Source: Arenicola marina (lineage: Eukaryota; Annelida; Polychaeta; Arenicolidae). Taken from it: a DNA stretch of 64,000 nucleotides. Every line of letters starts with the position of its first letter. The stretch's first letter is position 1. Both the position numbers and the translations under genes were made by a program. Below the pieces are notes generated by a model. The model did no database searches, was not told where the DNA came from, and saw only the letters and a list, made by a program, of their open reading frames with translations. Location of the stretch: assembly GCA_964019135.1 (NCBI GenBank), contig OZ025263.1, forward strand, positions 17,461,123 to 17,525,122. Reading direction: 5' to 3'. This document shows positions 2,617 to 50,372 of the stretch, in pieces.

Positions 2617-5600
2617 ATGGCGGCCATGTTGCCTGACGTCATAGACGAGGACTTCCTGTGCTGCCCGCTCTGCTGTCGCGGTCTGAAGCAGCCCAAGCTG
2701 TTGCCATGCCTACACCTCTTCTGCCAGGCGTGCCTCATGCAGCACATTGCCCAGTGGAGGCGGAAGAGCGCCAAGCTCGCCGCCAGCCCCACGCCGGCTC
2801 CGAGATCCGGGGAGTCGTCGTCACAGCGACCGGCCGCCGTCTCCAGCCCGCCTGGCAAGGTCAGGAAGGAGTCGGCAACCGCCTACTACGTCCTGCCCAG
2901 CTCTCTGCCCGCACCCTCCCGGGGGCCGGGGGCTGCGGCGGGGGGCAGTGACCGAGGCGGTGGATACGGCAGTCAAGGGAAGCTTGATCGGGTCGTCGTC
3001 GGTGACGGGGACCGATCTTCGCCCATATCGAACTACTGCTTGGCCTCCGCGCTGGCGGACGGCAATCCCAAGCTGAACCACTCGTCGCGATCGTTGGATA
3101 ACCTCCTCGACGCCGCCTTACCTACACCGCCAAAAGGTGACAATACCGCCACTTCAACCGTCTCCTTGGAGACCGCCGACCTTGACATTCGGCGTCCCGG
3201 CGCGGAAGGTCGGGCCCGGAAGAAGGGAGTGAAGAACAAGAAACGTTCGATCGAGCGCTACCAGAACCAGACCAAATTCACCGCCCAGGGACCAGAGTTC
3301 AGGCAAAAGTACAAGGGACAGCCGCTCGGGACCCCGGATGAACCGCCCAGTGACGTCACAGCAGCGTCGGCAGCGGTAGCGGCGGTGGAGCCCGCAAGCG
3401 CGCCAATCATCGAGACTGTCGATCCGGGAGCAGAGAATCCGTCGCCTTCAGCCAAGCCGACAAAGAAGGTCAAAAGACGGAGTAGTTCGACATCGCGCGC
3501 CGGATCCAGACGCCGGAAGAAGGATCGGCTCCAGGGTTCCGTAGACGACGCGGGGAAGGATCCGGCGGCTGATGGAGTCCCCAGGAAGGCGAGGGTCCCC
3601 AAGGCGTCTCGACAGTACATGCCCAAGGACCTGGCGGAGCCCGGGCTGCTGCAGGGGAAGGTGACCACCATGGTGAGGACCTTCGAAGACGCGCAGGCCT
3701 CGGCGCAGGCCGCCGCCCCGCGCGCCCAGATCAGATCCAAGGGCCGGGGGCGGCGGTCAGAACCCGCCATTGTGCCGCTGAGGGATCGGCCTCTGCCCGA
3801 GCCAGAGGGTCCGACCCACGCCGCCCCCAAGGATAGGGGTGCTACGACTGACCCAGACTCAAAGGGTAGGGGTACTCCCCCCAACCCCCCAGACCTCAAG
3901 GATGGGGATGCCACGACCCACCGTGAGGACGCTACGGAAGGGGGTTCCGAGGGCGAGGACACAGTCCCACCCCCGCTGCCGGCGTCAGCGCCGCCTCTCC
4001 CGACGAAAACCCCTCCAGTCTCCAGACCCTGGCATCGTCATCTCAGCATCACGTGCGGGAGACCGCCGCCGGCTCCACCCCCGGACGGGATTCCACCCCC
4101 GGGCGGGATCCCTGGATTGGGGGCCGCCTCACACCCCACCGACAAGTCAGTGCGGACGTCCCCGCCCAAGGCATCATCACCCCAGTGTGCGCCGAAGTCT
4201 AATAGTGATGACACCACGGCGCGGCCGCAGGCGGGGGCTGGGGCAGGGGCTGGGGCTGGGGCAGGGGCTGGGGCTGGGGCAGGGGCTGGGGCTGGGGCAG
4301 GGGCTGGGGCAGGGGCTGGGGCTGGGGCAGGGGCTAGGGCAGGGGCTGGGGCCGGGGCTGGGGCCGGGGCTGGGGCGGGGTCAGCCACATTGAACACACC
4401 GCCGCCGGCCGAGCGGCCGAGGAAGCTGATCCCGTTACCAGCCTCGACCTTGTCCAAGATCCCGCTTCCCATTCCCAGTCCGGACGCGGACGAGGCGGAA
4501 GAGGGGATCTACGACACCATGGCCCCTTCCCCCATGTACGACGTCCCCGCGTTCGGCCAGACGCCGGTGGCGGAGGCGGTCGCGCCCGAACTTCCGCCCA
4601 GGAATGTGGTGGAGAATCCGGGTCGGTCCCCGGCACAGGCGGCGCTAGGCGGCGGTGGCGGAGGCGGGGCCGGGGGCGGCGGAGGCGGGGGCGGCGGAGG
4701 CGGGGGCGGCGGGGGCGGGAGCGGACACCCGCGGGGCAGTCACGGCTCGGACTACAACGACGAGGGGATCTATGAACTATACGAGGTGCCTCACGCGAAG
4801 CGACCCTTCCAGCGGTCCATCACGTGCCCGCCCCCGGAGACGACATCCGGCGGTCTGGATCTGGCGGGGCTGTCCTCAGCCCCCGCCGACTATGACGTCA
4901 ACACCTCGGCGTTCTCCTTCGACGAGGAGTCCTTTTGTAACGAGTCGTGGGAGGAGGATAGCGCTGATTCCGCCACAGCCACAGCGGCCATGAGTGTGCC
5001 CGGGACAGACCCCAAGCAGGCGGCGGCGCCCTCCGCGGGGTCCAACGTCGCCAAGGGACATGTCAGCCACCTCAATGGCGGTGGTGACGTCAGCGCGGGT
5101 GTCCCTGGGAACGCCGACGACGACGATGAGGAATACGAACATTTCTATTACGAGATCCCGGAGAGCGCGCATGGTACCCTGAAGCGTGTCTCGGTGCGAC
5201 GGTCAAAGCGCTCCGGCGAGTGCAAGATTGAAGGCGGTGGCGGTACACCCGACAGCCTCCTCTCCCGCCTGCCGTCAGATACATACATGCTGGCGGGGGA
5301 TTTCAGCGCCGGAATGGAGCAGTCTGCCTTGAACGTCCCGATTCCTGTCCAGGAGGGGGCAAGGGCCGTGAAGGAAGGGGCCCTGCCGCCGGACCACTAC
5401 AAGGTCCCTCCCCAGCGCAAGCTCAGCGAGCAGTATCTCAGGATGGACGGCGTAGTCCGCCGCAGCCGCGTCGCCGGAGATGACGTCACGGCCCCCGCCG
5501 CCAGTGACATCGGGGGACCACCACCACCACCACCCCCGATAGAACAGCGCCAACCCGAGTACATTAACGGCACCACCGTCGATGACATGAAGATAATCCG

Positions 5601-7779
5601 TGACGACATCGCGGAGTTGAACATGCTGGATACGCCGATCCCTCTGTACGACGTGGCCAAGGCTACGCGCCGCCCCGCCGCCGCCGCCGCCGACGGGGCG
5701 ATGTACGACACTCCTTCCGGTCTCTTGTCACGTCCGGTATCGCCACCGGAGGATGACGTCTTCGACGACCACTCAAGCTTCCCGAAGAGCGGCGCGTTGC
5801 TGAAGATTCCGTGTCCCAAGTGCAAGAAAACGTTCGTCCTCCCCGAAGAGGGCCTGGACGGCTTGAAGACGTGCTCCTTCGCGTCGCAGCTGCAGGAGGT
5901 CGTTCAGACGCAGCGCGTCGAGCAGAAGAACTGCACCAACTGCGAGACGGGCCGGGCGCGCTTCCGGTGCTTTGACTGCGAGCAGTACCTCTGCTCGGGC
6001 TGCCTCAACGCCCACAACTGGCTCAAGGCCAACCGCGACCACAAGGTCATCAGCGTGGAGGAGCTCCAGAGCGGCAAGTTCCAGCAGGAGATCAAGGACT
6101 TGCAGGTGGCGACGTGCGACGTGGACAAGGTGAAGGAAGCGCAGTACTTCTGCATCCAGTGCCGCCACTGCCTCTGCCCGGACTGCGTCATGACGCACCA
6201 GCCGGGCCACTTCTGCGGCCCCATCGACCTCACCTCGCAGCGCGACTGCGACATCGTGCTGGCCATGAAGGACGAGGTCAAAGGTCGCGTGGAGACGTTC
6301 CAGGGGGCCCTGGAGCGGATGGACAACTACGGCAGCCACTGCGAGCAGATGGAGGCCGCCGTGCGCCAGCGCCTCGGCCAACACGAGGCCGTCATCACCC
6401 GGCTCGTGGCGCAGTGCTTCCAGAGCATGCGCGCCAAGGTCACGGCCGACTTCCGGGAGGAGGCCGAGGCCACTGAGGTCATACGGACCCAGATCGTGGC
6501 GTCGCTGGATTCCATGCGGTACACGACCAAGTTTGTGGAGCAGCTGGTGACCCACGGCAGGCCGGCCGACGTGGTTTCTCTGGCAACCCCGCTGAAGGAT
6601 ACTCTGCTCCGGTTGAAGGGCCAGCGTCCCCCTCATATGGATAACGAGCTGGATACCACCTACACCCTGCCGCCCGCGCTGTCTAGGGCGCACGTGGAGC
6701 CGCTGTGCGGTCACGTGAAGAGCGTCCAGCGACCGGTGGCCGAAGCGTCCTTGACCTTGCAGATGCGCACCGCCAAAGTGCTCGCGCAAAACACGCTGAC
6801 ACTGAACCTGCTTCGGGAGTTTCCGACCAAGATCGTCGAGGACACGAAGGGCTGCAAGCCGACCGGCCTGGCCGTGCTGCACAACGATGACGTCATCCTG
6901 GTGGACGACATCAACAAGAAGGTGAAGATCTTCGACCAATCGGGTCGCTTCCGGACGCAGCTGCACCCGAAGGGCAAGACGGCCTTCGTGGACCCCTGGG
7001 ACGTGTCGGTGATGGAAAACGGCAACATCGCCGTGACGGACAAGGGGGCCAAATGCGTCAAAGTCTTCAACTCCCACGGGCGCTTCATGTTCAGCTTCGG
7101 CCCGCACCTGCAGAACCCCTGGGGCATCGCGATCAACTCGCGGCGAGAGATGGTCGTCACGGACGTGTCCAGGAGGCGGGTCTACGTCCACAGCGAGGGA
7201 GGGAACCTGCTGTTCTCGCTTCCACACGAGGGGGACGCCAAGAAAAAATCTAACGCCGCCGCCTCCAAGGTGACCTTCAAGTGCCCGGAGTACGTGTGTG
7301 TCAATCACAACGACGACATCATAGTGTCGGATTTCGAGAATCACTGCGTCGTCGTGTTCGACTTCCTGGGGCGTGTCCTCTTCAAATTCGGCCAAAAGGG
7401 GCGTGGCTTGGACGAGCTGGACGTGCCCTGCGGCCTCGCTGTGGATCATAACCATGGCAACATCTTCATCGCCGACTACAACAATCAGCGCGTCATGGTG
7501 CTCACGCGCAACGGCCAATTTCTCTGTTGCCTAGCGACGCGACCCAAGTCGGGGGGACTCCTGGAGGTACCACAGACGCTGGCCGTCAACCACGTGGGCA
7601 ACCTGGTGCTGATCGACGGCACCAAGGTCAAGGTCTTTGAGATGCCCCCAGAGCTGTTGGCCAGGACGTCGATCCATGACAAAGGGGACAACGTTAACTA
7701 CGGCGACATCATCTTCAAGAGCAGCCACCTGGCGGGAGGCGAGGTGGAGAAGAAGGACGACAGAGAGACCACCGTCTAG
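2617..7779 (+). CDS. TRIM-NHL protein (RING, two B-boxes, coiled coil, NHL propeller) with a ~1,000-residue insert inside the RING
   Basis: Seen: a 1,720-residue frame. The first RING half is C16-x2-C19, C31-x-H33, C36-x2-C39. The last zinc pair is C1066-x2-C1069, followed by a TRIM2/3-like segment (FVLPEEGLDGLKT). B-box 1 starts at C1106 and B-box 2 at C1167. A helical, coiled-coil-like region spans about 1205-1330. Six NHL repeats lie between about 1402 and 1690. No filamin domain lies between coil and propeller, unlike TRIM2/3/71. The insert (about 45-1060) is basic, Ser/Pro-rich and disordered, with Ala-Gly repeats (539-588), poly-Gly (678-701), SH3-type PxxPxR and repeated YxxP motifs. 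Family knowledge: TRIM-NHL proteins are usually E3 ubiquitin ligases, and NHL propellers bind RNA or protein. Inferred: a cytoplasmic E3 ligase and tyrosine-phosphorylated scaffold. A retained intron is unlikely, because the insert stays open for about 1,000 codons. The paralogue group is uncertain. Confidence 0.93.
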   Translation: MAAMLPDVIDEDFLCCPLCCRGLKQPKLLPCLHLFCQACLMQHIAQWRRKSAKLAASPTPAPRSGESSSQRPAAVSSPPGKVRKESATAYYVLPSSLPAPSRGPGAAAGGSDRGGGYGSQGKLDRVVVGDGDRSSPISNYCLASALADGNPKLNHSSRSLDNLLDAALPTPPKGDNTATSTVSLETADLDIRRPGAEGRARKKGVKNKKRSIERYQNQTKFTAQGPEFRQKYKGQPLGTPDEPPSDVTAASAAVAAVEPASAPIIETVDPGAENPSPSAKPTKKVKRRSSSTSRAGSRRRKKDRLQGSVDDAGKDPAADGVPRKARVPKASRQYMPKDLAEPGLLQGKVTTMVRTFEDAQASAQAAAPRAQIRSKGRGRRSEPAIVPLRDRPLPEPEGPTHAAPKDRGATTDPDSKGRGTPPNPPDLKDGDATTHREDATEGGSEGEDTVPPPLPASAPPLPTKTPPVSRPWHRHLSITCGRPPPAPPPDGIPPPGGIPGLGAASHPTDKSVRTSPPKASSPQCAPKSNSDDTTARPQAGAGAGAGAGAGAGAGAGAGAGAGAGAGAGAGAGARAGAGAGAGAGAGAGSATLNTPPPAERPRKLIPLPASTLSKIPLPIPSPDADEAEEGIYDTMAPSPMYDVPAFGQTPVAEAVAPELPPRNVVENPGRSPAQAALGGGGGGGAGGGGGGGGGGGGGGGGSGHPRGSHGSDYNDEGIYELYEVPHAKRPFQRSITCPPPETTSGGLDLAGLSSAPADYDVNTSAFSFDEESFCNESWEEDSADSATATAAMSVPGTDPKQAAAPSAGSNVAKGHVSHLNGGGDVSAGVPGNADDDDEEYEHFYYEIPESAHGTLKRVSVRRSKRSGECKIEGGGGTPDSLLSRLPSDTYMLAGDFSAGMEQSALNVPIPVQEGARAVKEGALPPDHYKVPPQRKLSEQYLRMDGVVRRSRVAGDDVTAPAASDIGGPPPPPPPIEQRQPEYINGTTVDDMKIIRDDIAELNMLDTPIPLYDVAKATRRPAAAAADGAMYDTPSGLLSRPVSPPEDDVFDDHSSFPKSGALLKIPCPKCKKTFVLPEEGLDGLKTCSFASQLQEVVQTQRVEQKNCTNCETGRARFRCFDCEQYLCSGCLNAHNWLKANRDHKVISVEELQSGKFQQEIKDLQVATCDVDKVKEAQYFCIQCRHCLCPDCVMTHQPGHFCGPIDLTSQRDCDIVLAMKDEVKGRVETFQGALERMDNYGSHCEQMEAAVRQRLGQHEAVITRLVAQCFQSMRAKVTADFREEAEATEVIRTQIVASLDSMRYTTKFVEQLVTHGRPADVVSLATPLKDTLLRLKGQRPPHMDNELDTTYTLPPALSRAHVEPLCGHVKSVQRPVAEASLTLQMRTAKVLAQNTLTLNLLREFPTKIVEDTKGCKPTGLAVLHNDDVILVDDINKKVKIFDQSGRFRTQLHPKGKTAFVDPWDVSVMENGNIAVTDKGAKCVKVFNSHGRFMFSFGPHLQNPWGIAINSRREMVVTDVSRRRVYVHSEGGNLLFSLPHEGDAKKKSNAAASKVTFKCPEYVCVNHNDDIIVSDFENHCVVVFDFLGRVLFKFGQKGRGLDELDVPCGLAVDHNHGNIFIADYNNQRVMVLTRNGQFLCCLATRPKSGGLLEVPQTLAVNHVGNLVLIDGTKVKVFEMPPELLARTSIHDKGDNVNYGDIIFKSSHLAGGEVEKKDDRETTV
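4231..4380 (+). repeat. In-frame GGGGCT/GGGGCA hexamer repeat coding for Ala-Gly dipeptides
   Basis: About 150 bases of near-perfect ggggct/ggggca/ggggcc hexamers code for residues 539-588, an Ala-Gly run broken once by an Arg. Runs of four Gs every six bases give strong G-quadruplex potential on the coding strand. The antisense strand reads Pro-Ala. The same hexamer on the other strand forms the non-coding array at 51.14-51.33 kb. Confidence 0.9.
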
Positions 7780-8007
7780 TCCCCTCACTGTTATACTGGT
7801 TATAGTGAAGCGTTGAAGTATAGGAGCCTGGCGGGTGGCGAGGTGAGGATAACAGAGACACCACCGCCTAGTCCCCCCACTGTTATACTGGTTACAGTGA
7901 AGCGTTGAAGTATAGGAGCCTGGCGGGTGGCGAGGTGAGGATAACAGACACAACAACGCCTAGTCCCCTCGCTGTTATACTGGTTACAGTGAAGCGTTGA
8001 AGTATAT
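7728..8007 (+). repeat. 92-bp tandem repeat built from the 3' end of the TRIM-NHL gene
   Basis: The unit cctagtccc..ctgttatactgg recurs with an exact 92-bp spacing: the base after TAG is at 7780, 7872 and 7964. The first half of each downstream unit (ctggcgggtggcgaggtgag) is a decayed copy of the last coding bases of the gene (ctggcgggaggcgaggtgga), and each keeps a TAG at the matching place. There are about three copies counting the gene's own end. Confidence 0.9.
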
Positions 8008-32390: not shown

Positions 32391-32921
32391 CATCGGCCGC
32401 TATAACCTGACACTGCCCTCTGTCGGCGGAGACTGATGGCCTAACACATGTTCAGGGTTACTCAATGGATCATACGGAGCTTCAATCTCTGGCCGCGGCG
32501 TGGCGCTGATTGACACCTCCGTCCGTGTAGTCTGGTAGAGTATAGGCGGGGGTCAAATCCAGTCGCCATCCCATGCGATCCATCACGAAATGATGATATA
32601 AATAACAGTAGGATAGTAACATTCATGCTGATATCAAAAGGTCAACCTGTGGCATTCAGAGGTCAGAGATGCCAGACACAGGAATGAAGCTATGGGTATT
32701 AGATGTAGATGGTATGTAAAGCATTAGGCAGAAGCAGGTAGACATGACTATGTGAAGTCCGTGTTTAAAAGAGTAGATCTAGATGATATGTAAAGCATTA
32801 GGCACACATGACCATGTAGCTTTATCTATTATCCCGAGTGTTGGGCCAAGAATATGCCTTTCAAACAAAACTCAACTACAGCCTCAACTCAACTCCATGT
32901 ATAAATGTATAAATCGACTCT

Positions 32922-34128
32922 GCCTTGAGAGCGCTATCTGGCATCGCTGGCCGTCCAGTGGTCTGCCTTGAGAGCGCTATCTGCCATCGCTGGCCGTCCA
33001 GTGGTCTGCCTTGAGAGCGCCATCTGCCATCGCTGGCCGTCCAGTGGTCTGCCTTGAGAGCGTTCTCTGCCATCGCTGGCCGTCCAGTGGTCTGCCTTGA
33101 GAGCGCTATCTGCCATCGCTGGCCGTCCAGTGGTCTGCCTTGAGAGCGCTATCTGCCATCGCTGGCCGTCCAGTGGTCTGCCTTGAGAGCGCTATCTGCC
33201 ATCGCTGGCCGTCCAGTGGTCTGCCTTGAGAGCGCTATCTGCCATCGCTGGCCGTCCAGTGGTCTGCCTTGAGAGCGCTATCTGCCATCGCTGGCCGTCC
33301 AGTGGTCTGCCTTGAGAGCGCTATCTGCCATCGCTGGCCGTCCAGTGGTCTGCCTTGAGAGCGCTATCTGCCATCGCTGGCCGTCCAGTGGTCTGCCTTG
33401 AGAGCGCTATCTGCCATCGCTGGCCGTCCAGTGGTCTGCCTTGAGAGCGCTATCTGCCATCGCTGGCCGTCCAGTGGTCTGCCTTGAGAGCGCCATCTGC
33501 CATCGCTGGCCGTCCAGTGGTCTGCCTTGAGAGCGCTCTCTGCCATCGCTGGCCGTCCAGTGGTCTGCCTTGAGAGCGCAATCTACCATCGCTGGCCGTC
33601 CAGTGGTCTGCCTTGAGAGCGCCATCTGCCATCGCTGGCCGTCCAGTGGTCTGCCTTGAGAGCGCTCTCTGCCATCGCTGGCCGTCCAGTGGTCTGCCTT
33701 GAGAGCGCTATCTGCCATCGCTGGCCGTCCAGTGGTCTGCCTTGAGAGCGCTATCTGCCATTGCTGGCCGTCCAGTGGTCTGCCTTGAGAGCGCTATCTG
33801 CCATCGCTGGCCGTCCAGTGGTCTGCCTTGAGAGCGCTATCTGCCATCGCTGGCCGTCCAGTGGTCTGCCTTGAGAGCGCTATCTGCCATCGCTGGCCGT
33901 CCAGTGGTCTGCCTTGAGAGCGCTATCTGCCATCGCTGGCCGTCCAGTGGTCTGCCTTGAGAGCGCTATCTGCCATCGCTGGCCGTCCAGTGGTCTGCCT
34001 TGAGAGCGCTATCTGCCATCGCTGGTCGTCCAGTGGTCTGCCTTGAGAGCGCTATCTGCCATCGCTGGTCGTCCAGTGGTCTGCCTTGAGAGCGCTCTCT
34101 GCCATCGCTGGCCGTCCACTGGTCTGCC
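32922..34128 (+). repeat. 43-bp minisatellite, ~28 copies
   Basis: The unit begins ggtctgccttgagagcgcta and continues tctgccatcgctggccgtcc. Most copies are identical. Variants (ccatct, ctctct, caatctacc) recur in the same order 129 bases apart (33490s and 33620s), showing a local three-unit duplication. The minus strand is stop-free across units, which explains its short open frames. Confidence 0.97.
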
Positions 34129-39064: not shown

Positions 39065-41345
39065 CCGGTACTGCGGGACTGTGGACCACAGTGCTTTCCC
39101 AGCCTCACGCCACGGGAGACACGCCAAGGCGGGGCATTCGCTGCGGGACTGTGGACCACAGTGCTGTCCCAGCCTCACGCCACGGGAGAGACGCCAAGGC
39201 GGGGCATTCACTGCGGGACTGTGGACCACAGTGCTGTCCCAGCCTCACGCCACGGGAGAGACGCCAAGGCATTCACTGCGGGACTGTGGACCACAGTGCT
39301 GTCCCAGCCTCACGCCACGGGAGACACGCCAAGGCGGGGCATTAACTGCGGGACTGTGGACCACAGTGCTGTCCCAGCCTCACGCCACGGGAGAGACGCC
39401 AAGGCATTCACTTCGGGATTGTGGACCACAGTGCTGTCCCAGCCTCACGCCACGGGAGAGACGCCAAGGCATTCACTGCGGGACTGTGGACCTCAGGGCT
39501 GTCCCAGCCTCACGCCACGGGAGAGACGCCAAGGCGGGGCATTCACTGCGGGACTGTGGACCACAGTGCTGTCCCAGCCTCACGCCACGGGAGAGACGCC
39601 AAGGCATTCACTGCGGGACTGTGGACCACAGTGCTGTCCCAGCCTCACGCCACGGGAGAGACGCCAAGGCGGGGCATTCACTGCGGGACTGTGGACCACA
39701 GTGCTGTCCCAGCCTCACGCCACGGGAGAGACGCCAAGGCGGGGCATTCACTGCGGGACTGTGGACCACAGTGCTGTCCCAGCCTCACGCCACGGGAGAC
39801 ACGCCAAGGCGGGGCATTCACTGCGGGACTGTGGACCACAGTGCTGTCCCAGCCTCACGCCACGGGAGAGACGCCAAGGCATTCACTGCGGGACCGTGGA
39901 CCACAGTGCTGTCCCAGCCTCACGCGACGGAAGAGACGCCAAGGCGGGGCATTCACTGCGGGACTGTGGACCACAGTGCTGTCCCAGCCTCACGCGACGG
40001 AAGAGACGCCAAGGCGGGGCATTCACTGCGGGACTGTGGACCACAGTGCTGTCCCAGCCTCACGCCACGGGAGAGACGCCAAGGCATTCACTGCGGGACC
40101 GTGGACCACAGTGCTGTCCCAGCCTCACGCCACGGGAGAGACGCCAAGGCGGGGCATTCACTGCGGGACTGTGGACCACAGTGCTGTCCCAGCCTCACGC
40201 CACGGGAGAGACGCCAAGGCGGGGCATTAACTGCGGGACTGTGGACCACAGTGCTGTCCCAGCCTCACGCCACGGGAGAGACGCCAAGGCATTCACTGCG
40301 GGACTGTGGACCACAGTGCTGTCCCAGCCTCACGCCACGGGAGAGACGTCAAGGCGGGGCATTCACTGCGGGACTGTGGACCACAGTGCTGTCCCAGCCT
40401 CACGCCACGGGAGACACGCCAAGGCGGGGCATTCACTGCGGGACTGTGGACCACAGTGCTGTCCCAGCCTCACGCCACGGGAGAGACGCCAAGGCGGGGC
40501 ATTCACTGCGGGACTGTGGACCACAGTGCTGTCCCAGCCTCACGCCACGGGAGACACGCCAAGGCGGGGCATTCACTGCGGGACTGTGGACCACAGTGCT
40601 GTCCCAGCCTCACGCCACGGGAGAGACGCCAAGGCATTCACTGCGGGACCGTGGACCACAGTGCTGTCCAAGCCTCACGCGACGGAAGAGACGCCAAGGC
40701 GGGGCATTCACTGCGGGACTGTGGACCACAGTGCTGTCCCAGCCTCACGCGACGGAAGAGACGCCAAGGCGGGGCATTCGCTGCGGGACTGTGGACCACA
40801 GTGCTGTCCCAGCCTCACGCCACGGGAGAGACGCCAAGATGGGGCATTCACTGCGGGACTGTGGACCACAGTGCTGTCCCAGCCCCACGCGACGGAAGAG
40901 ACGCCAAGGCGGGGCATTCGCTGCGGGACTGTGGACCACAGTGCTGTCCCAGCCTCACGCCACGGGAGAGACGCCAAGGCGGGACATTCACTGCGGGACA
41001 GTGGACCACAGTGCTGTCCCAGCCTCACGCCACGGGAGAGACGCCAAGGCGGGGCATTCACTGCGGGACTGTGGACCACAGTGCTGTCCCAGCCTCATGC
41101 CACGGGAGACACGCCAGGGCGGGGCATTCACTGCGGGACTGTGGACCACAGTGCTGTCCCAGCCTCATGCCACGGGAGACACGCCAAGGCGGGGCATTCA
41201 CTGCGGGACTGTGGACCACAGTGCTGTCCCAGCCTCATGCCACGGGAGAGACGCCAAGGCGGGGCATTCACTGCGGGACTGTGGACCACAGTGCTGTCCC
41301 AGCCTCACGCGACGGAAGAGACGCCAAGGCGGGACATTCACTGCG
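39065..41345 (+). repeat. 70/65-bp minisatellite, ~33 copies, with higher-order structure
   Basis: The unit starts ctgcgggactgtggaccaca. Most copies are 70 bp; about eight lack ggggc near the end and are 65 bp. Each unit holds a 15-base inverted repeat, actgtggaccacagt. Variant signatures (gagac or gagag, cacggga or gacggaa, gggacc or gggact) recur in blocks: units 11-14 match units 22-25. The array is almost free of stop trinucleotides on the plus strand, so very long open frames (up to 776 codons) occur in all three frames. Confidence 0.97.
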
Positions 41346-41503
41346 GAATACGTGGGCAATGTTTAAAATATACTGGACATCCGCAATGACTTAAATACAT
41401 TAGCACAAGCTACAGTATAAAAAAAAAAGTAAAGATTTGTTCTCAACAATACTTTGGCGCATGCGTGACCGTTACCGGGACGAGTCGACCGGCGGCTATT
41501 ACG

Positions 41504-46899: not shown

Positions 46900-47455
46900 A
46901 ATAACATTACAATAGCAGGTCTAAACAACTCCAGTTTACGTGAGAAACATATTTGACCATGGATGACCGATGTTTTAAACATCGATATTGAGGACTACAC
47001 CCGAACAGTCCTAGAGCAGCTGTACTTCGGCCTAGATACACGACGTATGCATCATGGCGGCCAGGGTTTACCGCACACCTGGTCTATTTGCCTCGCTCTC
47101 ACTCAGGCTCGTTACCAGTTTAAGGGTTACAGAATGGTATATTAGTGGAGATTGCGCGAGTCCTACGTTAAGCCACAGGAAGCAACAGCCGTGAAGACAT
47201 TATTTTTAGCGGTTAACGGGAGGGGGTGGTGGGGGTGGGTACTCTGCTCGTGCGGTAATGAGATGAATGACTTGGGAGGTCACCCCCCCCCCTCCCCTCA
47301 CCCCAGGATGGGGGAGAGGGGGGGGGGGTCTCAGGCCCGGCCGGTCTGTTGTCTGAATCCCGGGGAGCTACCAACTGAGGTATGAACGCTCACTTATTGC
47401 GGAAGCAGAAAGATACATTTCGTTGGTTAGTGGGGGTCGGGGCGGTTTGGGCGAA
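46900..47455. other. Non-coding stretch before the large 17-bp array
   Basis: Nothing is recognisable except G- and C-runs near 47220-47330. Confidence 0.35.
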
Positions 47456-47459
47456 GCCT

Positions 47460-50372
47460 TTGTCTTAGCTCAGCCATGGTCTTGTCTGATCATTGGTCGT
47501 GGCTGAGCCATGGTCTTGTCTGAGCCATGGTCTTGTCTGGGCCTTGGTCTTAGCTCAGCCATGGTCTTGTCTGATCATTGGTCGTGGCTGAGCCATGGTC
47601 TTGTCTGAGCCATGGTCTTGTCTGGGCCTTGGTCTTAGCTGAGCCATGGTCTTGTCTGATCATCGGTCGTGGCTGAGCCGTGGTCTTGGCTGAGCCTTTG
47701 TCATGGCTGAGCCATAGTCTTGGCTGAGCCTTGATATTGGCTGAGCCTTGGTCTTGGCTGAGCCATGGTCTTGTCTGAGCCTTGGTGTTGGCTGAGCCTT
47801 AGTATTGGCTGAGCCATGGTCTTTGCTGCGCCATGGTCTTGGCTGAGCCATGGTCTTAGCTGAGCCATGGTCTTGGCTGAGCCATGGTCTTGTCTGAGCC
47901 ATGGTCTTGTCTGATTCATGGCCTTGGCTGAGCCATGGTCTTGTCTGAGCCATGGTCTTAGCTGAGCCATGGTCTTGTCTGAGCCATGGTCTTGTCTGAG
48001 CCTTGGTGTTGGCTGAGCCTTGGTATTGGCTGAGCCATGGTCTTGTCTGAGCCTTGGTATTGGCTGAGCCATGGTCTTGTCTGAGCCTTGGTATTGGCTG
48101 AGCCTTGATCTTGTCTGAGCCTTGGTATTGGCTGAGCCTTGATCTTGTCTGAGCCATGGTCTTGTCTGAGCCTTGGTATTGGCTGAGCCATGGTCTTGTC
48201 TGAGCCTTGGTATTGGCTGAGCCATGGTCTTGTCTGAGCCTTGGTGTTGGCTGAGCCTTGGTATTGGCTGAGCCATGGTCTTGTCTGAGCCTTGGTATTG
48301 GCTGAGCCTTGATCTTGTCTGAGCCTTGGTATTGGCTGAGCCATGGTCTTGTCTGAGCCTTGGTATTGGCTGAGCCTTAGTCTTGTCTGAGCCATGGTCT
48401 TGTCTGAGCCTTGGTATTGGCTGAGCCTTGGTATTGGCTGAGCCTTGGTCTTGTCTGAGCCATGGTCTTGTCTGAGCCTTGGTATTGGCTGAGCCTTGGT
48501 ATTGGCTGAGCCTTGGTATTGGCTGAGCCATGGTCTTGGCTGAGCCATGGTCTTGTCTGAGCCTTGGTATTGGCTGAGCCTTGGTATTGGCTGAGCCATG
48601 GTCTTGTCTGAGCCTTGGTATTGGCTGAGCCATGGTTTTGTCTGAGCCTTGGTATTGGCTGAGCCTTGATCTTGTCTGAGCCTTGGTATTGGCTGAGCCA
48701 TGGTCTTGTCTGAGCCTTGGTATTGGCTGAGCCTTGGTCTTGTCTGAGCCATGGTCTTGTCTGAGCCTTGGTATTGGCTGAGCCTTGGTATTGGCTGAGC
48801 CTTGGTCTTGTCTGAGCCATGGTCTTGTCTGAGCCTTGGTATTGGCTGAGCCTTGGTATTGGCTGAGCCTTGGTATTGGCTGAGCCATGGTCTTGGCTGA
48901 GCCATGGTCTTGTCTGAGCCTTGGTGTTGGCTGAGCCTTGGTATTGGCTGAGCCATGGTCTTGTCTGAGCCTTGGTATTGGCTGAGCCATGGTCTTGTCT
49001 GAGCCTTGGTATTGGCTGAGCCTTGATCTTGTCTGAGCCTTGGTATTGGCTGAGCCATGGTCTTGTCTGAGCCTTGGTATTGGCTGAGCATTGGTATTGG
49101 CTGAGCCTTGGTATTGGCTGAGCCTTGGTATTGGCTGAGCCATGGTCTTGTCTGAGCCTTGGTATTGGCTGAGCCATGGTCTTGTCTGAGCCTTGGTATT
49201 GGCTGAGCCATGGTCTTGTCTGAGCCTTGGTATTGGCTGAGCCATGGTCTTGTCTGAGCCTTGGTATTGGCTGAGCCTTGGTATTGGCTGAGCCATGGTC
49301 TTGTCTGAGCCATGGTCTTGTCTGAGCCTTGGTATTGGCTGAGCCATGGTCTTGTCTGAGCCATGGTCTTGTCTGGGCCTTGGTATTGTCTGAGCCTTGG
49401 TCTTGTCTGAGCCTTGGTATTGGCTGAGCCTTGGTATTGTCTGAGCCATGGTCTTGGCTGAGCCTTGGTATTGGCTGAGCCTTGGTATTGGCTGAGCCAT
49501 GGTATTGGCTGAGCCATGGTCTTGTCTGAGCCATGGTCTTGTCTGAGCCTTGGTATTGGCTGAGCCTTGGTCTTGTCTGAGCCATGGTCTTGTCTGAGCC
49601 TTGGTCTTGTCTGAGCCATGGTCTTGGCTGAGCCTTGGTATTGGCTGAGCCTTGGTATTGGCTGAGCCATGGTCTTGTCTGAGCCATGGTCTTGTCTGGG
49701 CCTTGGTATTGTCTGAGCCATGGTCTTGTCTGAGCCTTGGTATTGGCTGAGCCTTGGTATTGTCTGAGCCATGGTCTTGGCTGAGCCTTGGTATTGGCTG
49801 AGCCTTGGTATTGGCTGAGCCATGGTATTGGCTGAGCCATGGTCTTGTCTGAGCCATGGTCTTGTCTGAGCCTTGGTATTGGCTGAGCCTTGGTCTTGTC
49901 TGAGCCATGGTCTTGTCTGAGCCTTGGTCTTGTCTGAGCCATGGTCTTGGCTGAGCCTTGGTATTGGCTGAGCCTTGGTATTGGCTGAGCCATGGTCTTG
50001 TCTGAGCCATGGTCTTGTCTGGGCCTTGGTATTGTCTGAGCCATGGTCTTGTCTGAGCCTTGGTATTGGCTGAGCCTTGGTATTGTCTGAGCCATGGTCT
50101 TGGCTGAGCCTTGGTATTGGCTGAGCCTTGGTATTGGCTGAGCCATGGTATTGGCTGAGCCATGGTCTTGTCTGAGCCATGGTCTTGTCTGAGCCTTGGT
50201 ATTGGCTGAGCCTTGGTCTTGTCTGAGCCATGGTCTTGTCTGAGCCTTGGTCTTGTCTGAGCCATGGTCTTGGCTGAGCCTTGGTATTGGCTGAGCCTTG
50301 GTATTGGCTGAGCCATGGTATTGGCTGAGCCTTGGTATTGGCTGAGCCATGGTATTGGCTGAGCCGTCTTGG
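47460..50372 (+). repeat. 17-bp minisatellite, ~170 copies, with 5-, 21- and 19-unit higher-order repeats
   Basis: Two unit types alternate: gagccatggtcttgtct and gagccttggtattggct. Rare variants mark higher-order periods. The phrase tagctcagcc or tagctgagcc is at 47466, 47551 and 47636 (85 bp, 5 units). ttgatcttg is at 48309, 48666 and 49023 (357 bp, 21 units). tctgggcct is at 49372, 49695 and 50018 (323 bp, 19 units). The units lack stops on the minus strand, giving open frames up to 963 codons in more than one frame. Confidence 0.97.

Follow-up and report, generated by a model that had tools for sequence, protein, structure and literature searches.

Gene and domain organization of the locus

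The window analysed, a stretch of 64,000 nucleotides (C18:17461123-17525122) of an 867-Mb animal genome, contains on the forward strand an open reading frame (2617..7779) encoding a protein of 1720 amino acids with the RING, B-box and NHL organization of the TRIM-NHL proteins. The Pfam RING model PF00097 gave 28.2 bits against a cut-off of 21, its profile positions 1-31 of 40 being aligned with residues 16-45 (2662..2751, +). This first part of the predicted RING, also matched by the RING of TRIM2, carries by position zinc ligands 1-6 (C16, C19, C31, H33, C36 and C39). Ligands 7 and 8 correspond by position to C1066 and C1069 of a CPKC motif (5812..5823, +), as deduced from the comparison of the rejoined halves with TRIM2 and with PF00097. 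Between both parts lies an insert of residues 46-1057 (2752..5787, +), rich in Ala, Pro and Gly and with few hydrophobic residues. Downstream, the B-box model PF00643 (36.8 bits) matched two stretches, the better one at residues 1102-1147 (5920..6057, +), and the NHL model PF01436 (76.9 bits) matched four, at approximately residues 1412-1677 (6850..7647, +). A sequence search of solved structures paired the NHL region with chains of TRIM2, TRIM3, TRIM71, Brat, Thin and Mei-P26, and the RING with those of TRIM2, TRIM56 and TRIM3. The finding of RING, B-boxes and NHL in one frame agrees with the first-pass annotation, in which the insert was assigned to a TRIM protein.

In an AlphaFold2 model of fragment 1059-1720, of low confidence (mean pLDDT 35.6) and built without relatives, fragment residues 150-239 are folded as a pair of long helices, a prediction too uncertain to assign a coiled coil. 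In the Pfam scan (E ≤1) of the 1720-residue protein, filamin repeat, SH3, Serine_rich, CAS_C and Cbl_N domains were not found. Rfam and tRNA scans gave no matches, and NCBIfam returned bacterial NHL models alone, far under their cut-offs. None of the 42 pattern matches in viral contigs nor of the 201 in contigs of prokaryote genomes was confirmed as a relative, which is expected for an animal gene.

In the region 7741-8006, the protein ends in ETTV, a class I PDZ-type terminus, and the stop codon is spanned by a tandem repeat (7760-8006; 92-bp unit, 2.7 copies); therefore, this ending may be young. The octamer TGACGTCA, of the CRE type, occurs six times in the frame (2634, 3351, 4893, 5085, 5481 and 6888, +), each copy being read in one common codon phase (xDV[I/T/N/S]); 0.40 copies were expected from synonymous shuffles, and none of 2000 shuffles reached six. 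Across the whole window there are nine copies against 0.97. Elsewhere in the window, large minisatellite arrays were identified at 32919-34128 (43-bp units), 39070-41346 (70/205-bp units) and 47455-50365 (34/85/153-bp units). In the last two, several frames run through hundreds of codons without a stop, a trap for gene callers.

Tyrosine and proline motifs of the insert

The insert had been described in the first-pass annotation as a p130Cas-like array of YxxP and Grb2-type tyrosine motifs. The YxxP motifs on which this was based (Y91, Y641, Y722, Y845, Y928 and Y1030) were all located at those residues, as were YING at Y982, YDVA at Y1011, a PELPPR motif at residue 657 and a poly-proline stretch from residue 968 on. 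Two YxxM motifs had been overlooked there, as had one more PxLPx[K/R] site. A candidate docking cluster extends from Y632 to Y1030 (4510..5715, +), including YDTM, YDVP, YELY, YEVP, YDVN, YEHF, YEIP, YKVP, YLRM, YING, YDVA and YDTP. The YxxM sites, YDTM at Y632 (4510..4521, +) and YLRM at Y940 (5434..5445, +), are p85-type and make the motif set a mixed one, and YING (5560..5571, +) belongs to the Grb2-type pYxN class. YVLP at Y91 (2887..2898, +) is isolated and, although real, probably due to chance, since residues 46-599 hold one YxxP where 0.93 were expected. The proline motifs PPLPTK (PxLPxK, Crk SH3-type; residues 459-464, 3991..4008, +) and PELPPR (PxLPxR, SH3-type; residues 657-662, 4585..4602, +) amount to two PxLPx[KR] sites against 0.10 by shuffling (p 0.001), and the broader PxxPx[KR] class was not enriched (2 against 1.83, p 0.55).

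YxxP by itself was only marginally enriched, with six motifs against 2.76 in global shuffles (p 0.050) and against 2.3 in local shuffles in which the tyrosines were kept fixed (p 0.019-0.024). Stronger signals came from the acidic residue at +1 (Y[DE], 9 of the 22 insert tyrosines, p 0.0008-0.0034, and p 0.0006 in the scan by position), from Y[DE]xP (4 against 0.30-0.34 expected) and from the P, M and N adaptor classes pooled (10 against 3.1-3.4, p ≤0.0012). Eight of the 22 tyrosines fit Y[DE][VILT], for which 0.55-0.68 were expected. Local shuffling with three block sizes, 5000 rounds each, never reached this count of eight; this class was picked after seeing the data and its p-value is descriptive. 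When flanking offsets from -8 to +8 were scanned, V/I/L/M/T at +2 stood out (13/22, p <0.0001) and proline at +3 was borderline (6/22, p 0.049). Beyond +1 to +3, solely acidic residues at -6 (8/22, p 0.003) and -2 (6/22, p 0.04) passed 0.05, and thus the claim that many motifs are preceded by acidic residues holds at these two positions and at no other upstream offset. YxxM (2/22) was weakly enriched by shuffling (p 0.02-0.09; p 0.11 against the paralogues described below) and YxN (2/22) was not above shuffles (p 0.09-0.11).

The YxxP and Y[DE] signal was confined to residues 600-1058, where all eight Y[DE][VILT] sites are located. Residues 46-599, with seven tyrosines including Y91, showed neither, and a weak signal for Yx[VILMT][PMLVI] was found there (2 against 0.29, p 0.03). 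Synonymous codons vary among the motifs, which argues against a recent tandem copy. A nucleotide bias towards TGACGTC as the source of the YDV motifs was also considered and rejected, as only Y759 among them lies on this sequence. YxxP is not the main enrichment, and the fuller Y-[D/E]-[V/I/L/T] signature, although defined after the fact, is strong.

Comparison with RING-NHL paralogues and Cas of the same genome

The paralogue scan comprised 48 loci (L001-L048, many of them overlapping), which cover part of the 63 NHL matches and part of the 50 matches of another search. The count took in the 11 frames in which a RING could be recognised within a single open frame, and NHL loci without such a RING match were left out (e.g., L011, L012, L014, L017, L019, L021, L023-L027, L041, L045 and L047). 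Y[DE][VILT] was found at 8 of the 22 insert tyrosines and at 5 of 160 in these frames (Fisher p 1.1e-5), and YxxP at 6/22 and 9/160, respectively (p 0.004), the paralogues being mostly folded and unmatched for disorder in both comparisons. Among the loci left out, L041 (C8:31234374-31238213) encodes an NHL protein with no other Pfam domain, 798 of the 1043 codons of its frame being covered; its N-terminal part has two PxLPxR SH3-type sites (0.03 expected by shuffling) and no YxxP or Y[DE][VILT]. NHL matches with identical scores were found at two places on C12:35357198-35385876 and on the small contig C725, corresponding either to a recent duplication or to an alternative haplotype.

CAS_C and Cbl_N each had one match in the genome. 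The frame of the genome's own Cas, located through its one CAS_C match and with Serine_rich and CAS_C domains by Pfam, was used as positive control and showed YxxP at 10 and Y[DE][VILT] at 8 of its 18 tyrosines, so judged by sequence the tyrosine signature of the insert is of the same kind. This Cas lies largely in one 991-codon open frame (C10:8912100-8915400) containing the YxxP-rich, serine-rich and C-terminal parts, in which an SH3 domain was not detected. A profile of the flanks of the Cas YxxP motifs (-3 to +4 without +3) separated the insert tyrosines weakly from other positions of the insert (p 0.025). Two of the 22 exceeded its top 1% level, and the mean score of the insert tyrosines (-6.72) was no better than that of the nine lying outside the insert (-6.74). 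This failure to single out the insert tyrosines was counted against the docking reading.

Per block, hydrophobic residues represent 7-24% in the insert versus 31-53% elsewhere, and the mean TOP-IDP value is 0.19-0.29 versus 0.05-0.12. Both values are consistent with an insert that is probably disordered. A neutral, fast-growing disordered spacer of poly-Ala/Gly/Pro, with accidental or dispensable motifs in an otherwise ordinary TRIM-NHL ligase, would fit the simple repeats that preserve the frame (4230-4380 and 4648-4736), the GC3 of the measured insert blocks (0.68-0.82, below the 0.83-0.95 found downstream) and the lack of a paralogue for segment 600-1058, all of whose 24 other places in the genome (E ≤0.1) overlap its poly-Gly stretch, as well as the borderline YxxP count and the result of the Cas-flank profile. 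Such a spacer is contradicted in part by a Y[DE][VILT] count that no local shuffle reached, by a Cas in this genome that bears this signature too, by the varied motif codons and by a signal limited to one sub-region, and we consider it rather unlikely.

Interruption of the RING domain

When the uncut protein was compared with the TRIM2 RING, the match was confined to residues 8-44 (42.9 bits). Once residues 46-1057 were removed, TRIM2 residues 11-88 were covered through the junction with 70.3 bits and a one-residue gap near the join. After rejoining, PF00097 was aligned along its profile positions 1-40 of 40, yet its score rose only from 28.2 to 31.4 bits. This comparison covered one junction. 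As the rejoined halves give a continuous TRIM2-like RING, the insert splits the domain between zinc ligands 6 and 7, and the sequence places about 1010 residues between C39 and C1066. The 11 other RING-NHL frames counted in the genome have 12-30 residues between these ligands, and the best-scoring relative (28% over positions 7-617 of the 662-residue tail) has 17 at that RING position. Judging from titles and the beginnings of abstracts, nothing relevant about split or interrupted RINGs was found in the literature searched.

An insert of this size inside a zinc-binding fold, when the 11 other RING-NHL frames have gaps of 12-30 residues, could have killed the RING, and the protein would then be a Cas-like scaffold anchored by its NHL domain, with docking motifs that matter but are uncoupled from ubiquitination. 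In such a case some loss of ligands or of alignment would be expected, whereas none of the eight zinc ligands is missing and each half can be aligned with TRIM2; a dead RING seems improbable to us.

Coding capacity of the insert

The insert is coding. No in-frame stop was found in residues 46-1058 (1013 codons), whereas base shuffles had 22.8 on average, none of 2000 shuffles was free of stops, and the other two forward frames contain 19 and 33; the possibility of the insert being an intron was rejected because of this absence of stops. Scoring by synonymous codons, with the downstream domains as the training set, favoured frame 0 (-117) over the other forward frames (-194 and -196) for the same residues, but one reverse frame scored higher (-88) and the call by this score is not clean. 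With a crude splice matrix, a single donor scored above 5, at 3673, and the acceptors scoring above 4 were three, at 2727, 3892 and 4478. No donor above 5 lies near the RING break and no pairing of these sites spans it, the matrix being weak and having also missed the TAG immediately before the ATG. This TAG is preceded by a T-run, and there may thus be another exon upstream. Although such an exon would leave room for the insert being partly or wholly spliced out of most transcripts, with the split RING mainly a reading of genomic DNA, this is very improbable given 1013 codons without a stop, where about 23 were expected, and no donor and acceptor pair across the break with that crude matrix.

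Comparison with known systems

The protein resembles TRIM-NHL members (TRIM2/TRIM3/TRIM71, Brat, Thin and Mei-P26) in its RING, nearest to that of TRIM2 among solved structures, its B-boxes and its NHL region. It differs from them in the approximately 1010 residues within the RING, in the tyrosine docking signature and in the absence of a Pfam filamin repeat. We know of no phosphotyrosine array in Wech, the Drosophila LIN41 homologue. Literature searches, which covered few subscription papers, gave no TRIM-NHL protein with YxxP motifs. In the excerpts retrieved, the sole co-mention of TRIM-NHL proteins with tyrosine phosphorylation and SH2 dealt with TRIM2 and arenavirus entry, which is irrelevant here, and there was a single co-mention with Crk, each named once. 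Among the matches listed by two broader searches, those of one had no YxxP and those of the other no TRIM-NHL protein.

With p130Cas/BCAR1 the insert shares a YD[VT]P-type array and, as in the genome's Cas, eight Y[DE][VILT] sites (8/22 and 8/18). In contrast to Cas, SH3, Serine_rich and CAS_C are absent from this protein (Pfam, E ≤1), and YxxP is less frequent (6 versus 10 in the Cas frame of the genome) and mixed with YxxM and YxN. Cas orthologues have 6-25 YxxP each, according to an excerpt of PMC5043372, and the six found here, counting the isolated Y91, reach the lower end of that range. The same excerpt describes choanoflagellate pYDVP peptides that bind a choanoflagellate Crk SH2 domain, and that of PMC2689226 considers at least three YxxP in a 100-kDa intracellular protein to be rare. 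The possibility that the protein is itself Cas was discarded, as the genome's Cas lies elsewhere and the Cas domains are missing here.

Cbl offers a second term of comparison, and its Y774 is a YDVP site. On sequence grounds, the protein is like Cbl and Cbl-b in having an E3-type RING and a proline-rich part with tyrosine motifs in one chain. It has no match to Cbl_N (TKB), for which the genome has a separate one, and it does have B-boxes and NHL; moreover, its tyrosines are inside the RING, whereas those of Cbl come after it. As described in excerpts of PMC11310040 and PMC7994203, Cbl joins a RING E3 and a tyrosine-phosphorylated, SH2-binding part in one chain, with c-Cbl Y731 binding p85, and an excerpt of PMC2689226 includes Cbl among the Crk-engaging proteins. 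The first-pass annotation did not know of a ligase and tyrosine-kinase scaffold combined in a TRIM-NHL protein. Nothing in the literature searched contradicted this, but since Cbl is already an E3 and phosphotyrosine scaffold, the combination is not new in itself. What makes the protein unusual is mainly the location of its putative docking region.

Proposed function of the insert

The reading that we favour, with a probability of about 0.55, is that of a TRIM-NHL ligase with a RING interrupted by a probably disordered insert, some 1010 residues long, the second half of which would be a phosphotyrosine docking region joined to the E3. The earlier proposal of a p130Cas-like array is retained in that the motif region is real, coding, non-random and Cas-like in its Y[DE][VILT] signature; it had to be modified because YxxP is not the main signal, Y91 is probably accidental and the motif set is mixed. 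From its motifs, the insert appears nearer to Cbl, or to a multi-adaptor docking protein, than to a pure Crk platform.

By analogy with Cas and Cbl, a kinase of the Src/Abl type could phosphorylate the insert tyrosines. Once phosphorylated, YDVP, YEVP, YEIP, YKVP and YDTP would recruit Crk, YDTM and YLRM would recruit p85, and YING would recruit Grb2, with the two PxLPx[KR] SH3-type sites possibly assisting. The RING would then ubiquitinate either the complex docked on the insert or nearby targets that the NHL domain selects, a pairing of RING and docking region much like that of the Cbl RING with its own tail. A bolder version, which we put forward as a conjecture with the odds well against it, is that a Cbl-like design evolved independently in a TRIM-NHL protein as a multi-adaptor platform inside the RING, where phosphorylation or adaptor binding between ligands 6 and 7 might open, close or aim the ligase.

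The TRIM-NHL family is usually discussed in relation to RNA binding, neurons and muscle. If this proposal is true, a second ligase family would have converged on the joining of ubiquitin transfer and tyrosine-kinase adaptors known from Cbl, and a docking region within the catalytic zinc finger itself would represent an unusual form of coupling between phosphorylation and ligase activity.
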